Source of the DNA: Spartobacteria bacterium
GTDB taxonomy: Bacteria > Verrucomicrobiota > Verrucomicrobiia > Chthoniobacterales > UBA6821
Direction of reading: 5' to 3'
DNA: 41,524 nucleotides
Assembly: GCA_947482345.1 (NCBI GenBank)
Contig: CANKJN010000008.1
Location: forward strand, 1-41,524
Part shown: positions 9,013 to 41,524 of the stretch, piece by piece
Layout of the letters: each line of letters opens with the position of its first letter
Position numbering within the stretch: the stretch's first letter is position 1
Translations under genes and position numbers: made by a program
The notes under the pieces: model-generated
The model's input: only the letters and a program-made list of their open reading frames with translations
The model's database searches: none
What the model was told of the DNA's origin: nothing

Positions 9013-9591
9013 CTATTGGCCTTCCCGAAGGCTCCTTCTGATCCAATCCGGATCTCTCCGGGCATCCAGAACGCGAAACACGATTACTTCATCCCCCGAG
9101 ACACGGTAGTAAATGCAGAAGGGGAACCGCTGCACCACGAGCCGATGGTATCCAAGACGGACGGTATGAATCCCTGCATAAAGAGTCAGGGAATCGATCT
9201 CAGAGAAAAGCGCGTCGAAAAAGTAATCACCGACGCCATCGGCTTGCCGTTCGTAGAACTCCCTTGCCGATCCGAGATCCTCTAGGGAAGCGCTGATTAA
9301 ATCGCATGGAGGCCGTTGCGGTAAGAATGGGCCGCGGGCAAGGCGGCTTCGCGGGCGCATCCCCGCAGTGGGCTGTAACCGCGAAGCCAACACAGCCCCC
9401 GGCCTGTTATCTCCGCAACCCGCAGGGCTAAAGCCATTTGTCGATCTTTTGTGGCGTTGCTCGCTCGGGCGAGACCGCTGCGGGTATCGCCCAGCACTCG
9501 CGCCTTCAAAAATCAGCAAATGGCCTTCAGCGGCCTTCATGGGATTAAATCAGCGGTTCCCAAGCGCGGAACGAAGAATCCGGAGCTTCAT
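9013..9591 (-). pseudogene. RelE/ParE-type toxin gene split by a MITE
   Basis: The C-terminal part (9013-9284) encodes a RelE/ParE-family toxin: EDLGSAREFYERQ, then FFDALFSEIDSL, GYHRLVVQRFPFCIYYRV and RVLDARRDPDWI, matching the family's helices and terminal strands. The gene's true start is ATG at 9589-9591, overlapping the antitoxin stop as ATGA and reading MKLRILRSA, before the 277-bp element at 9285-9561 interrupts it with a stop shortly inside. Removing the element together with one TA gives MKLRILRSALEDLGSAREFY, a normal toxin N-terminus with no frameshift. An open frame also runs through the element from an internal ATG at 9540 into the toxin body, so a chimeric product is possible, but its N-terminus is element sequence. 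The intact toxin would be about 100 residues, normal for the family. Most likely inactive. Confidence 0.8.
9285..9561. mobile_element. MITE-like element, copy 1 (277 bp)
   Basis: A non-autonomous element with terminal inverted repeats beginning GGGAAGCGCTGATTAAATCG at the left and GGGAACCGCTGATTTAATCC-like at the right (right end read on the minus strand, one base variable). It is 277 bp, the same as the copy at 11199-11475. TA flanks the left end at 9283-9284, and a decayed TA (AA) follows the right end. An internal 10-bp stem GGCTTCGCGG/CCGCGAAGCC encloses a smaller hairpin. It carries no transposase. TA target sites would fit an IS630/Tc1-mariner-type enzyme supplied in trans (inference). 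Confidence 0.8.
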
Positions 9592-11199: not shown

Positions 11200-11475
11200 G
11201 GAACCGCTTATTAAATCCCATGAAGGCCGCTGAAGAGCATTTGCTGATTTTTGAAGGCGCGAGTGCTGGGCGATACCCGCAGCGGTCTCGCCCGAGCGAG
11301 CAACGCCACAAAAATCGACAAATGGCTTCAGCCCTCCGGGTTGCGGAGATAACCGGCCGGGGGGCTGTGTTGGCCTCGCGGTTACAGCCCACTGTGGGGA
11401 TGCGCCCGCGAAGCCGCCTTGCCCGCGGCCCATTCTTCTCGCAACGGCCTCTATGCGATTTAATCAGCGGTTCCG
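11199..11475. mobile_element. MITE-like element, copy 2 (277 bp)
   Basis: Same 277-bp element as at 9285, in opposite orientation, starting (A)GGAACCGCTTATTAAATCCC and ending GATTTAATCAGCGGTTCC(G). TA stands at 11197-11198; the right flank has a decayed TA (TT). The internal stem is GGCCTCGCGG/CCGCGAAGCC, one mismatch from perfect. The 92-codon open frame that starts inside it at 11220 has no gene-like features and is read as chance. Confidence 0.8.
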
Positions 11476-12649: not shown

Positions 12650-12985
12650 TCACTTCCTGCGCACTTCCACCAACCTCTGCCCGGATTCCAGTTGCCGGAT
12701 GATTTCGGGGAAAAGGGGTTCCAGCCATGCGAAGAGAATCCGGTTCGTCGCATTCCCTATCCTCAGCCAGACAACCGGTGGACCCGCGTGAAATCCGACT
12801 TCCTCATCCGCGAAGTCATCGTCCTTGGTAATCAGAACCCATCCGCCCGACCTCGCAAAATTACGGATGCTTCCGTCATCGGATGTCAGAAAGCCTGCAT
12901 CCCTCGCCGCGGTCGCGGAGTACCCCCTCTCGCCAAGCCACCGCGCCAAAGCCAGCGGCAACTGCGCATCCACCAGAAAGCGCAT
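12650..12985 (-). CDS. DUF5615 PIN-like toxin
   Basis: A 111-residue protein of the DUF5615 (PIN-like) family. It begins MRFLVDAQLPLALARWLGE, with the first conserved aspartate at residue 6, and has WVLITKDDDFADEEV, the acidic second motif of the family. It follows a DUF433 gene with 3 bp between stop and start, the standard arrangement in which the DUF433 protein is the antitoxin and DUF5615 a probable nuclease. A second, different DUF433/DUF5615 pair is at 28393-28997. Length is normal and nothing appears damaged. Confidence 0.85.
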   Translation of the reverse strand: MRFLVDAQLPLALARWLGERGYSATAARDAGFLTSDDGSIRNFARSGGWVLITKDDDFADEEVGFHAGPPVVWLRIGNATNRILFAWLEPLFPEIIRQLESGQRLVEVRRK

Positions 12986-13581: not shown

Positions 13582-13660
13582 AATACCGAAGCATGGGAAT
13601 GCTTGGGATAGCCTGCATTCATGCAGCCCAGAGGGCGCCACTCGCGGGCGCGAGGGCGGC
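13582..13660. repeat. REP-like hairpin array, GGGA-loop form
   Basis: Hairpins in order: GCATgggaATGC, linker TTGGGATAGC, CTGCattcatGCAG, GCCCagaGGGC, then CTCGCgggcGCGAG. Related copies at 29487-29557 and 30010-30080 have CCGTgggaACGG, CTGCC/GGCAG, GCCCgttaGGGC and CTCGCgggaGCGAG, so the first stem has changed at both arms while the loop and linker are kept. It separates the antitoxin gene at 13665 from the toxin remnant at 13486. Confidence 0.7.
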
Positions 13661-13664
13661 AAAG

Positions 13665-13975: not shown

Positions 13976-14047
13976 AAACCTCTCAAACCTCTCAAACCTC
14001 TCAAACCTCTCAAACCTCTCAAACCTCTCAAACCTCTCAAACCTTTC
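13976..14047. repeat. Tandem 9-bp repeat (AAACCTCTC)
   Basis: Seven perfect copies of AAACCTCTC from 13976 to 14038, then a degenerate eighth (AAACCTTTC). A short run of CAACCTCTC-type units also occurs at about 9858-9880 at the matching position upstream of another antitoxin gene. Copy number may vary by slippage. Confidence 0.9.
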
Positions 14048-14135
14048 ACTTTTCACTTTTCACCTTCACACCAATCCCTCTCCCTCAACTCTGCTAGTCG
14101 CCTTCCCACTTCAGGTTTGATAGCCCGGCCGTTGC

Positions 14136-14210
14136 TTGCCTCGCCGCCTCCAGACGGCCTCGTCCTCCGGACTGCTGCGCAGGCTACATCATACCTCCCG
14201 GCACTCGATG
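14136..14210. repeat. REP-like element with defined ends (75 bp)
   Basis: Starts TTGCCTCGCC and ends CACTCGATG. Hairpins in order: GCCGcctccagaCGGC, linker CTC, GTCCtccGGAC, CTGCtgcGCAG, linker GCTAC, and a last stem with ATC/GAT. The flanks GGCCGTTGC and TTCGCATCCGTTACGG join directly in an uninterrupted form (reverse strand) at about 41398-41422, giving an empty-site/filled-site pair. On the minus strand the element shows GTAG just before a hairpin, as in REP sequences handled by RAYT (Y1) transposases. Confidence 0.7.
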
Positions 14211-14231
14211 TTCGCATCCGTTACGGCAGGT

Positions 14232-14557
14232 TTGACGGCACTTGCCTCCCGGCAAGCCGTGCCGCCCTCCGGGCTACCTTCCGTAGTCTACCGCGCCCGA
14301 TCCCTCGGGCTTGGTTCAGGTTTCATCCCTCATCCTTCATAATTCATCCTTCAGCTTTTGCCCCGTTCCCCCTTTCCGATCCCTCCTAACAGCATTGACG
14401 GCACTTGCCTCCCGGCAAGCCGTGCCGCCCTCCGGGCTACCTTCGGTAGTCTACCGCGCCCGATCCCTCGGGCTTGGTTCAGGTTTCATCCCTCATCCTT
14501 CATAATTCATCTTTCAGCTTTTGCCCCGTTCCCCCTTTCCGATCCCTCCTAACAGCC
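14232..14557. repeat. Two tandem 163-bp repeats with hairpins
   Basis: Unit 1 (14232-14394) and unit 2 (14395-14557) are almost identical; the few differences include CCGTAG/CGGTAG and CCTTCAG/CTTTCAG. Each contains GGCAC...GTGCC around CTTGCCtcccGGCAAG, then GCCCtccGGGC, CTACCttcGGTAG, the linker TCTACC, GCCCGAtcccTCGGGC and TTGGTTCAGG, followed by a pyrimidine-rich tail. Open frames inside are repeats of each other and are not genes. Confidence 0.85.
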
Positions 14558-21354: not shown

Positions 21355-21496
21355 CACCATGCACCGGGTGATGAGCGCTGCTTTTTCCCTCACTGCTGAG
21401 TCGGAATCCTTCCCCTGGAGAGGATTTTTTCTTGCTCCAGTTGGAGCCTCGTGCGAAGAAACACTCAACAGACCCGCCACGCCTCTCCACGATGCG

Positions 21497-21521
21497 CACC
21501 AGGGCGGGTGCTTTATTTTTA
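21497..21521 (+). terminator. Candidate rho-independent terminator after hsdS
   Basis: Stem GCACC (21497-21501) and GGTGC (21508-21512) with a 6-base loop, followed by TTTATTTTT. It lies in the 192-bp gap between hsdS and the Abi gene, which otherwise holds no supported gene. Confidence 0.5.
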
Positions 21522-21546: not shown

Positions 21547-22485
21547 ATGAAGTTCCATAAGCAGGCACTTCCCATCCCAGAGCTTCTTGGCAAGTGGCGG
21601 GATCGGGGCCTACAGATTAAGGATAAGTCTGAAGCAGAGCACTATCTCCGCTTCATCGGTTACTACCGGCTTTCTGCCTACGCGCTTCCGTTGCAGGAGT
21701 CGGCTGCATCTGCCCAAGCGGGCGTCGACAAGCCATTCAAGTCGGGTGCTTCCTTCCGTGACATCCTAAATCTCTATCGCTTCGACAGGGAGCTGAGGCT
21801 TCTGTTCATGGATGCCATTGAGCGGATCGAGGTAGCCGTCCGAACCTGCATCGTGAATGAAATGAGCCTCGCTCACGGCCCTCATTGGTTCATGGATGCT
21901 GTGCATTTCAATCCCCATGCCCGCCGCTTCAAGCACCACCAGTTTCTCGATCAGGTCGATAAAGAACTCAAGATCGCCAACGGATCCAAGTCTCCAGACA
22001 AGCCTCACCACGAGGTGTTCATCAATCATTACTACGACACCTACTCTGATCCGTACCTGCCTCCGGCTTGGATGATTGCCGAGACGCTCACGCTGGGGAC
22101 ATGGTCCAGGATCTTCGAGAATCTCCGTGTTACTGAGGAGAGGAAAGCGATCGCGCGCCCTCTCCAAACCGATGAACGGGTGCTGCGCAACTGGCTCCAT
22201 GCCTTGAATTACCTCAGAAATCTCTGTGCCCACCATTCCCGTCTCTGGAATCGAAAGTTCGTCATCAAGCCGGTGATCACAAAACGCCATGAGCAGTTCC
22301 TGAAATCGAATGACCGCTGCTACTCCATGGCAGCGGTCGTGGAGGATCTGCTTCGGATCATCGCGCCGGGAACATCCTGGGCCCACCGTCTTCATCACTT
22401 GCTTACCGCCAACCCGTTTGCTGATCCAGCAGCCATGGGTTTTCCTGTCGGCTGGGAGGCTGAACCGTTCTGGAATCTGAGATAA
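21547..22485 (+). CDS. Abi_2 (AbiD/AbiF-like) abortive infection protein
   Basis: A 312-residue protein of the Abi_2 family (AbiD/AbiF/AbiD1-like), phage-defence proteins first described in Lactococcus. N-terminal KALPIPELL-type start (KQALPIPELLGKWRDRGL), then YLRFIGYYRLSAYALPLQES, LNLYRFDRELRLLFMDAIER and PPAWMIAETLTLGTWS, all family landmarks. RNLCAHHSRLWN near residue 223 contains the RxxxxH motif of HEPN ribonucleases. It sits between hsdS and hsdR with only 5 bp to hsdR, so defence functions are combined in one transcript. It may act as a back-up when restriction fails (inference). Confidence 0.88.
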   Translation: MKFHKQALPIPELLGKWRDRGLQIKDKSEAEHYLRFIGYYRLSAYALPLQESAASAQAGVDKPFKSGASFRDILNLYRFDRELRLLFMDAIERIEVAVRTCIVNEMSLAHGPHWFMDAVHFNPHARRFKHHQFLDQVDKELKIANGSKSPDKPHHEVFINHYYDTYSDPYLPPAWMIAETLTLGTWSRIFENLRVTEERKAIARPLQTDERVLRNWLHALNYLRNLCAHHSRLWNRKFVIKPVITKRHEQFLKSNDRCYSMAAVVEDLLRIIAPGTSWAHRLHHLLTANPFADPAAMGFPVGWEAEPFWNLR

Positions 22486-28392: not shown

Positions 28393-28629
28393 ATGCAGTT
28401 CCCCGATATCGACAGAATCACGATCGATCCCCAAGTGATGGGTGGTAAGCCCTGCATTCGCGGCATGCGTGTGACCGTGGGCATGATTACGGGATTGGTC
28501 GCTTCTGGAGCATCCTTCGATGAGATCGTGAAGCTCTATCCCTATTTGGAATCCGAGGATATCAAGGCAGCGCTCACCTACGCCGCGTGGCGCTCCGAGG
28601 AGCACGACGTTCTTCTCCAGACGGCTTGA
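28393..28629 (+). CDS. DUF433 antitoxin (second copy)
   Basis: A 78-residue DUF433 protein with the family signature MGGKPCIRGMRVTVGMITGL preceded by IDRITIDP, and the C-terminal helix ESEDIKAALTYAAWRSEEHD. Partner of the DUF5615 protein whose TTG start overlaps this stop codon. It differs in many residues from the DUF433 protein at 12989, so the two modules are not a recent duplication. The start is placed by the -10 box six bases upstream. Confidence 0.9.
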   Translation: MQFPDIDRITIDPQVMGGKPCIRGMRVTVGMITGLVASGASFDEIVKLYPYLESEDIKAALTYAAWRSEEHDVLLQTA

Positions 28630-28997
28630 AGATCCTGCTGGATATGAACCTGTCTCCTGACTGGGTTCCTTTGCTTGTCGGTGGTGGGCATGAAGCCTTG
28701 CACTGGCGCGATCTCGGCGCGGCAAATGCCCCTGATACCGAGATCATGGCCTGGGCCAGGGAGCATGGATATGTGGTCTTCACCCACGATCTGGACTTCG
28801 GTGCCCTTCTTCATGCGACTGGAGCCGTGGCGCCGAGCGTGATTCAGTTCCGCGAAGATGATGTGCGTCCGGAGATCCTCGGTAGTCAGGCCCTTCTTGC
28901 CCTTGTTCAAGCAAAGGCGGAAATCGAGGCTGGAGCATTGATCACTATCGATTTGCGCAGGATGAGGATCACCAGCCTGCCGTTAAGGAATCGCTGA
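28626..28997 (+). CDS. DUF5615 PIN-like toxin (second copy), TTG start
   Basis: A 123-residue DUF5615 protein: (M)KILLDMNLSPDWVPLLVGGG with the first conserved aspartate, then GYVVFTHDLDFGALLHATGA with the second acidic motif, and ALITIDLRRMRITSLPL at the end. I place the start at TTG 28626, which overlaps the antitoxin stop and gives the standard KILLDMNLSP N-terminus. The nearest upstream ATG would put 13 out-of-family residues in front. Probably a nuclease held in check by the DUF433 protein. Confidence 0.85.
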   Translation: MKILLDMNLSPDWVPLLVGGGHEALHWRDLGAANAPDTEIMAWAREHGYVVFTHDLDFGALLHATGAVAPSVIQFREDDVRPEILGSQALLALVQAKAEIEAGALITIDLRRMRITSLPLRNR

Positions 28998-29345: not shown

Positions 29346-30223
29346 GGCACTGCTTTGAGGGAGCAAGGTGCAGTTCAACCGAGGGTGCGCGAGCGAGTGA
29401 ATCGGATTATCCCTCCTTTCAGGAGGGCTCTGGAGTTAGGCTTCGCTGAGTATAATTGCCGCTGATCGCGGCATGCCAATACCTGGCCGTGGGAACGGTC
29501 GGGATAGCCTGCCTATAGGGCAGCCCGTTAGGGCGCTACTCGCGGGAGCGAGAGCGGAGGCGGATGCTCAGATCCACCCCGTTCCATCAACTTTAAGTTG
29601 ATGGAGCCGGCAATACGCGCCCCTGGGGAGGGGCCGGATAGATCCCGCATTCGCGGGACCCGAAGGGCGAGCCGAGCGGGCGCGAGCGAGTCAATCGAAC
29701 CAAGGTTTTGAACTCGGGCATGCCCATGCCGCTCGCCATTCGCTTTCGCTTCGGCTGTTCATTTCAGAACAGTCCAATCTCCTCTCGCCAATCGGAGATT
29801 TCATCCGCCCCGGTCCATCAACTAAGGTTGATGGAGCCGGCAATACGTGCCCCTGGGGAGGGGCCGGATAGATCCCGCATTCGCGGGACCCGAAGGGCGA
29901 GCCGAGCGGGCGCGAGCGAGTCAATCGGATTATCCCTCCTTTCAGGAGGGCTCTGGAGTTAGGCTTCGCTGAATATAATTGCCGCTCATCGCGGCATGCC
30001 AATACCTGGCCGTGGGAACGGTCGGGATAGCCTGCCTATAGGGCAGCCCGTTAGGGCGCTGCTCGCGGGAGCGAGAGCGGCAATCGAACCAAGGTTTTGA
30101 ACTCGGGCATACCCATGCCGCTCGCCATTCGCTTTCGCTACGGCTGTTCGTTTCAGAACAGTCCAATCTCCTCTCGCCAATCGGAGATTTCATCCGCCCC
30201 GGTCGATCAACTAAGGTTGATGG
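29346..30223. repeat. Mosaic repeat block next to tRNA-Thr
   Basis: About 0.88 kb with no supported gene, built of three segment types in mixed order. Type A (29400-29557 and 29930-30083): CCCTCC/GGAGGG hairpin, GTTAGGC, GCCGC/GCGGC, and the GGGA-loop hairpin array with CCGTgggaACGG. Type B (29693-29830 and 30082-30222): starts CAATCGAACCAAGGTTTTG and includes GCTGTTC/GAACAG and CCAATC/GGAGATT hairpins. Type C (29590-29690 and 29828-29930): GTTGATGGAGCCGGCAATAC, then CCCCTGGGGAGGGG and TCCCGC/GCGGGA. Order from left: A, C, B, C, A, B, then the tRNA. Copies differ by a few bases. Confidence 0.75.
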
Positions 30224-31141: not shown

Positions 31142-31492
31142 GGGAAGCGCTGATTAAATCGCATAGAGGCCGTTGCGGGAAGAACAGGCCGCGGGCAAGG
31201 CGGCTTGGCACGAGCATCCCCGCAGCGGGCTGTAAGTGCCAAGCCAACGCAGCCCCCGGCCTGTTATCTCCGCAACCCGCAGGGCTGAAGGCATTTGTCG
31301 ATTTTTGCCTCGCCGTCTCCCGACGGTCTCGTCCTCCGGACTGCTTCGCAGGCTACGACGCGGCTCCCGCCGCTCGTCGTTGTGGCGTTGCTTGCTCGGG
31401 CGAGACCGCTGCGGGTATCGCCCAGCGCTCGCGCCTTCAAAAATCAGCAAATGCTCTTCAGCGGCCTTCATGGGATTTAATCAGCGTTTCCC
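31142..31492. mobile_element. MITE-like element, copy 3 (351 bp, with nested insert)
   Basis: Ends GGGAAGCGCTGATTAAATCG (left) and AATCAGCGTTTCCC (right) with TA at 31493-31494 and a decayed CA at 31140-31141. It is the same element as at 9285 plus a roughly 75-bp REP-like insert at 31307-31381. Internal stem here is GGCTTGGCAC/GTGCCAAGCC, different from copy 1 (GGCTTCGCGG/CCGCGAAGCC) on both arms. Confidence 0.8.
31307..31381. repeat. REP-like element nested in MITE copy 3
   Basis: Inserted between GTCGATTTTT and GTGGCGTTGC, which are contiguous in the copy at 11199 (reverse strand) and nearly so at 9285. Hairpins: CCGTCtcccGACGG, GTCCtccGGAC, CTGCttcGCAG, linker GCTAC, then CGACGCGG/CCGC-TCGTCG. 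Ends GCCTCGCC...CTCGTCGTT match the ends of the elements at 14136 and 35594. The same insert begins at the same place in copy 4 (41506-41524). Confidence 0.75.
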
Positions 31493-35593: not shown

Positions 35594-35674
35594 TTGCCTC
35601 GCCATCCCCGATGGCCTCGCCCTGAAGGGCTGTGCGTCGCACAGGCTTCATCGTGCCTCCCGTCACTCGATGTT
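35594..35674. repeat. REP-like element with defined ends
   Basis: Starts TTGCCTCGCC and ends CACTCGATGTT, the same ends as the 75-bp element at 14136. Hairpins: GCCATCcccGATGGC, GCCCTgaAGGGC, CTGTGCgtcGCACAG, linker GCTTC, then ATCG..CGAT. All stems differ from the 14136 copy, with pairing preserved. Confidence 0.7.
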
Positions 35675-41305: not shown

Positions 41306-41524
41306 GGGAAGCACTGATTAAATCGCATAGAGGCCGTTGCGGAAAGAATTGGCCGCGGGCAAGGCGGCTTGGCGCGAGCATCCCCGCAGTGGGCTGCCGT
41401 AACGGATGCGAAGCAACGGCCGGGCAAGCAAAGCGCCAAGCCAACACAGCCCCCGGCCGGTTATCTCCGCAACCCGAAGGGCTGAAGCCATTTGTCGATT
41501 TTTGCCTCGCCGTCTCCCGACGGG
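41306..41524. mobile_element. MITE-like element, copy 4 (cut by window end)
   Basis: Starts GGGAAGCACTGATTAAATCG preceded by TA at 41304-41305. Internal stem is GGCTTGGCGC/GCGCCAAGCC, again different from other copies on both arms. Its loop contains an insert of about 36 bp (CCGTAACGGATGCGAAGCAA, then CGGCCGGGCAAGCAAA), also known from 145-180. At 41506 the same REP-like insert as in copy 3 begins (GCCTCGCCGTCTCCCGACGG) and runs off the window. Confidence 0.8.

Follow-up and report, generated by a model that had tools for sequence, protein, structure and literature searches.

Short four-helix repeats with exact AA ends and matching empty sites in Spartobacteria genomes: a probable family of non-autonomous mobile elements

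Introduction

Arguments on how small palindromic repeats move have so far rested mainly on the RAYT genes with which they are associated. It is already known that palindromic repeats can be non-autonomous, that they nest in other palindromes and that some families have no dedicated transposase (PMC3733652). The window analysed here, a stretch of 41,524 nucleotides that constitutes contig C8 of a 2.36 Mb assembly in 125 contigs, contains hairpin arrays of ~75 bp that lie within other repeats, and raises the question of whether such arrays move as discrete units and, if so, what moves them. The araA protein encoded in the window is nearest to proteins of Spartobacteria MAGs (91 and 90%), and the genome is therefore that of a member of the Verrucomicrobia.

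A structured repeat family

A preliminary description of the window placed elements of ~75 bp at 14136, 31307 and 35594. All three are present and belong to one structured family, designated E (Table 1), and their boundaries were correctly drawn, differing from the register used here (14136-14212 and 31305-31381) only by an unavoidable shift of a TT. The copy lengths of 77, 77 and 81 bp include the TT at each end, with net inserts of 75, 75 and 79 bp, respectively; across the family, E ranges from 77 to 93 bp.

Table 1. Copies of E, repeats that host it and related arrays in the window
Feature	Coordinates	Strand	Remarks
E copy 1	14136..14212	minus	77 bp, AA at both ends; 93.1 bits; within GAA loop of P2 hairpin
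P2 hairpin hosting E copy 1	14123..14227	minus	split in halves 14123-14135 + 14213-14227
E copy 2, subtype A	31305..31381	minus	77 bp; 102.3 bits; within MITE
MITE filled with E copy 2	31142..31492	plus	
E copy 3, longer hp2/hp3	35594..35674	minus	81 bp; 73.9 bits
Fourth E copy, start only (contig end cuts rest)	41502..41524	minus	in MITE beginning 41306
MITE without E (empty site)	9285..9561	plus	277 bp, TA-flanked
MITE without E (empty site)	11200..11474	minus	
Unoccupied P2 hairpin (empty counterpart of copy 1)	41396..41429	plus	inside MITE at 41306
Diverged E-like array	13582..13662	plus	42.3 bits, E=2.7e-6
Diverged E-like array	30001..30083	plus	36.6 bits, E=3.8e-5

Read in register, E units begin AAC and end GGCAA. 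On the minus strand of the window, E consists of AA, a hairpin 1 (hp1) with a two-base GA bulge and a GGGA loop, a single A, a closing stem (GCCU...AGGC) around three further hairpins (hp2, hp3 and hp4), and a final AA; there are four separate helices, with hp1 standing outside the closing stem. Among 68 distinct copies, standard pairs occupy 94% of pair cells and 20 of the 26 pairs are changed on both sides, versus 14.2 in shuffles and no more than 15 in slid controls, in an alignment that was fitted to the covariance model and leans towards structure; a smaller MAFFT alignment, made with no model fitting, gives the same pairing support. G-T mispairs exceed A-C mispairs by 79:35 (p=5e-5, counted over cells that are non-independent events), which argues that the constrained, folded strand is the E strand, whether in RNA or in single-stranded DNA form. 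No Rfam 15 model matches E at 14136, 31305 or 35594, and assignment to a known RNA family was discarded.

Some 89 copies of E were read with their flanks and reduced to 32 unrelated (nonredundant) contexts, a set that omits eight copies with a non-canonical 3′-end (chimeric or decayed), and in all 32 the ends of E are base-exact. The terminal A and GGCAA carry ~1.9 bits of information per base, a value that falls to ~0 within 2-3 bases outside E. The base preceding E is G or C in 32 of 32 contexts and the base following it is A or T in 31 of 32. The termini are AA in nearly all copies, but there is no inverted repeat between the two ends, AACATCGAG and GGCGAGGCAA, which have AA alone in common. 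A weak excess of sites lies in hairpin loops (9 of 42, for a null of 4.1±1.7), and a hairpin loop as the target is thus only weakly supported; strict targeting of loops was rejected.

Empty and filled sites

In this genome and its relatives, copies share both ends in these 32 contexts, and occupied and empty versions of the same site are also present. In the MITE, the empty site reads CCAC-AA-AAATCG and, when filled, E lies between two AAs. Both MITE copies reported to lack E, at 9285 and 11199, are indeed empty and read GTCGATTTTTG-TGGCG, as do more than 30 further MITE copies in this genome, but the insertion of copy 2 is not private to its MITE, as at least 13 MITE copies of this genome carry E at the identical base. 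An empty MITE at a contig start (L137) is identical to the MITE that holds copy 2 in 82 of 82 joined flank bases.

Copy 1 was described as inserted in a motif that is contiguous on the reverse strand near 41398-41422, and this holds: in the P2 hairpin at 41396-41429 the minus strand has CCGTTGC-TT-CGCATCC, the empty site being GATGCG-AA-GCAACGG. A second empty site with the same outer flanks is present at C30:11311. The preliminary description had no partner for copy 3; one is found in contig C43 (L107; GTA-TT-GCC), with flanks that are 88% identical, the empty context being GGC-AA-TACA with a single TT/AA, and this context is filled a second time in C34 (L109).

The fourth type of site is related to a tRNA gene. 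About 50 bp past an intact tRNA-Gly gene there is a ~25-nt copy of the 3′-end of the gene, with E at the AA of the T-arm (GGG-AA-TCGAACC), and the T-arm of the intact tRNA-Gly, GGG-AA-TCGAACC, matches the E-filled fragment. Fragments split in this way by E are found in this genome in C21 and, beside another tRNA-Gly, in C116, and also in genomes G005, G014 and G015 (L173, L193, L211, L231, L245), with a degraded case in G007; several genomes have the tRNA-Gly without any such fragment. The stretch in G005 is partly tandem-repeated. The fragment has the look of a place where an integration or a duplication happened long ago.

Thus, where little or no target duplication had been claimed, there is one AA/TT when the site is empty and an AA/TT at both ends when it is filled. 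In P5 and P3-type contexts (GGGA/GGAA loop), the empty relatives have GG or GA rather than AA, so that these empty copies are unlike the true target or else two bases were replaced there, and the AA rule is not clean in GGGA-loop contexts. Orthologous empty sites were also sought in L009 and L010, the closest of the named MAGs, but this comparison was uninformative, as the intergenic regions could not be aligned. The exact pairs, together with the ends in 32 unrelated contexts, bear out the proposal that the arrays move as discrete units of ~75 bp with precise ends, as far as movement can be read from sequence comparison of MAGs; the unit, its ends, fold and site preference, the pairs, and the subtypes described below are the features that such comparison shows.

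Insertion versus passenger spread

On the MITE tree, the presence of E requires 8 changes for 9 filled copies (8.4 in shuffles), and a single origin of the filled MITEs of this genome, as one clade, is rejected (p-AU 2e-5). Given this scatter, MITE copies must exchange sequence with one another, gain E repeatedly, or lose it. By itself, the MITE set of this genome does not show repeated transposition. Insertion into a MITE, although correctly described, is alone not proof of many moves, as MITE spread and exchange between copies contribute; the local spread of E is partly MITE amplification plus recombination. As the context around many copies of E has been duplicated as well, independent insertions are fewer than the copy number.

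The MITEs and E also contain other arrays. Modules shuffle within MITEs, and several MITE copies of this genome (L143, L146, L148, L133, L138) carry further small arrays (P2, a CGTGCCACGCCACGAAGCC block and a ~100-bp block), at fixed places in some, so that the MITE holds further empty/filled pairs. At G000:C63:10395-10595 and C30:13742 (L091, L105), E is split between hp4 and hp3 by another array, GTTGATGCC...GTGTTTGGTT, which is a nested insertion into E.

Across species, the E at the MITE site is nearest to P2-type copies in G014 (95%) and to P5-type copies in G006 (90%), whereas here it is near neither and is a third subtype, and different subtypes also occupy the same tRNA-Gly-fragment site in different species. 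These differences at the same site favour repeated targeting over one ancestral insertion. Independent insertion at the MITE site in the several species would give the subtype pattern, although E-to-E conversion could imitate it.

We consider it probable that the E repeats, 77-93 bp long and with a four-helix strand, form a non-autonomous mobile family that inserted as a unit at G/C-AA-A/T, leaving AA ends, and then spread as passengers. One strand folds into the bulged hairpin with the GGGA loop followed by three hairpins closed by GCC/GGC. This folded strand, presumably as single-stranded DNA, would be the substrate of an enzyme that recognises it and cuts at AA, the unit being inserted at G/C-AA-A/T with an AA left at both ends. 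In most genomes, this enzyme would be no resident RAYT, group II/retron-type reverse transcriptase or IS110 transposase. Once inserted, copies would have been carried further by the MITEs and other palindromic repeats in which they lay, and also through exchanges among copies of the repeats.

If there were no dedicated enzyme, E would instead ride on larger repeats (the MITE, P2, P4 and tRNA fragments) through their transposition, homologous exchange, and polymerase template switching at hairpins with AA microhomology. The recurrence of E together with MITE, P2 and P4 contexts, its scatter over the MITE tree and the shuffling of modules all fit this account, but it does not readily explain why E has identical ends in 32 unrelated contexts and in another family, as AA alone is too common to fix the same two ends every time. 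The different subtypes at one site also argue against it, with the qualification as to conversion given above, and we regard it as rather unlikely.

Distribution of E

With a covariance model built from 17 copies of E (E-value <= 0.001), all 16 genomes of the genus were searched and E was found in all 16, with from at least 1 to at least 52 copies per genome, numbers that are lower bounds as part of the candidates were scored in each. This first model suggested that E is limited to one genus, which proved not to be so: E occurs sporadically elsewhere in the order, with three copies of the same ends and fold in a different family, where two genomes carry them, and a broader model detected four copies in one genome of the sister genus. 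Under stricter filters, the broader model gave no E in other genera among 286 evenly drawn genomes of the class.

Candidate enzymes

All of the genomes are MAGs of 76-97% completeness, and bins often lose repeats and transposases; with that proviso, PF01797 (Y1/RAYT) was detected in 2 of the 16 E-bearing genomes of the genus, an RVT_1 reverse transcriptase in 1 and IS110 in 2, one of these partial. No match to E lies within about 1.5 kb of the three Y1 genes, and none lies near the RVT_1 or IS110 genes; the search for Y1, reverse transcriptase and IS110 genes in these 16 genomes identified no moving enzyme or autonomous partner of E. Reverse transcriptase and IS110 were accordingly rejected as general movers on their occurrence, and a RAYT was rejected as the resident mover for most genomes. 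Two of the Y1 genes are in this genome (L089 at G000:C70:9280 and L090 at C33:2330; 312 and 352 aa, respectively). They are flanked not by REPs but by inverted GGGGTCGGT / GGGGTCAGT repeats, each gene having its own long terminal inverted repeats (GGGGTC), as do TIRYT genes (PMC3733652), and give sub-threshold hits to the NCBIfam RAYT model.

The preliminary description proposed a RAYT-type Y1 transposase as the mover of E and took GTAG as a REP trait. E would then be REP/REPIN-like and moved in trans by a RAYT (TnpA-REP) that is rare, strain-variable or missed in bins, its copies being the residue of bursts. Consistent with this are the single-strand fold with a bulged hairpin, the GTAG found in 61 of 95 scored copies (~64%), the hits of the two Y1 genes to the RAYT model, and the richness of Opitutus terrae, also of the Verrucomicrobia, in GTAG REPs (PMC3733652). 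The GTAG is, however, internal (positions 26-29 of 77), and its presence is explained by pairing of these bases within hp1 and the closing stem; TnpA-REP, guided by GTAG, cuts at CT or CA (PMC8266576), whereas the ends of E are AA. Y1 genes were found in two of the genomes, and the search for a RAYT gene flanked by the same hairpins returned only the three Y1 loci with E-free surroundings, the two in this genome being of the TIRYT type. With Y1 rare and not flanked by E, and with AA ends and an internal, variable GTAG, the RAYT inference is not supported and we judge it unlikely, although a past or strain-variable RAYT, or Y1 genes missed by the bins, may lie behind E.

It is very improbable that the empty sites arose when slippage between the AA/TT direct repeats deleted E precisely. 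Repeats of 2 bp on either side of a hairpin do offer a substrate for slippage, and the near-identical pair 31142 (filled) and L137 (empty) fits gain or loss. Against this, it is the site without E that is functionally intact or symmetric, as in the T-arm of tRNA-Gly, the loop of P2 and the palindrome of the MITE; this form is also the commoner one for the MITE and P2, and a loss model still requires insertions.

Within the reading of E as a mobile unit, it is possible, and we put it forward tentatively, that a structure-recognising recombinase, neither a RAYT, a reverse transcriptase nor an IS110 enzyme, inserts the folded strand at S-AA-W, and that in several species it reached one and the same site of the MITE, and of the tRNA-Gly T-arm fragment, by independent events.

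Relation to known repeats

GTAG REPs and REPINs with their RAYT resemble E in being short, extragenic, strand-specific bulged hairpins that are non-autonomous and present in tens of copies, and many copies of E contain GTAG. E differs in its length of 77-93 nt, its four covarying helices, its AA ends and its internal and variable GTAG, in the lack of an inverted REP pair and in the absence of a Y1 gene from 14 of the 16 genomes. In most GTAG REP families, a terminal GTAG is present in >90% of members, and a REPIN has two inverted REPs in one long hairpin; neither description applies to E. CGTC-tagged REPs, including Rickettsia RPE-4/6 (PMC3733652), are also mobile-looking palindromes with no dedicated transposase, some inside other palindromes, but E has no terminal CGTC tag (its ends are AAC.. 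and ..GGCAA), is a larger multi-hairpin unit and has a defined AA site. REP dimers nest, as E does, in other palindromes (A. variabilis GTAG-15, T. roseum GTAG-23 and H. neapolitanus CGTC-1; PMC3733652), whereas insertions of E are also seen in a MITE and in a tRNA-Gly fragment, and several of its host repeats are known both with and without it. MITEs are likewise non-autonomous and occur in tens of copies, but E has no terminal inverted repeats, and the 277-bp, TA-flanked MITE of this genome is a separate host of E. A non-autonomous element derived from IS200/IS605 would have subterminal hairpins on one strand and a Y1 transposase acting in trans; E may or may not belong here, its hairpins being strand-specific and the Y1 gene missing from 14 of the 16 genomes. 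The small dispersed repeats of cyanobacteria, reportedly described by Elhai et al. in 2008, are said to be 21-27 bp long and to occur within other repeats and RNA genes, where sites with and without them form exact pairs; E has about three times their length and, in addition, a conserved fold of several helices.

What is new is the four-helix unit with AA ends, the S-AA-W site, the several hosts with and without E, and the wide presence in RAYT-less genomes. In genomes that are mostly RAYT-less, E offers ends exact to the base, a fold with good support, a defined target and empty sites close at hand, and the question of the mover, raised for CGTC REPs, therefore becomes directly testable.

Other features of the window

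Additional repeats lie close to copy 1: a 163-bp hairpin array at 14227-14552 is a tandem duplicate (98%), and there is a 9-bp tandem repeat (CCTCTCAAA) at 13983-14050. Two DUF5615 (PIN-like) genes, 12650-12985(-) and 28587-28997(+), adjoin repeat-rich intergenic stretches. The ORF at 9013-9540(-) has a ParE-like C-terminal half, and its first ~85 codons are MITE sequence (9285-9561), which may supply a false or new start at the 5′-end of the ORF. An abiF RNA (Rfam RF03085) at 21473-21509(+) is located directly 5′ of an Abi_2 gene (21547-22485(+)), inside a type I restriction-modification locus at about 16.9-25.8 kb, and the two are predicted to constitute an abortive-infection RNA/protein pair.
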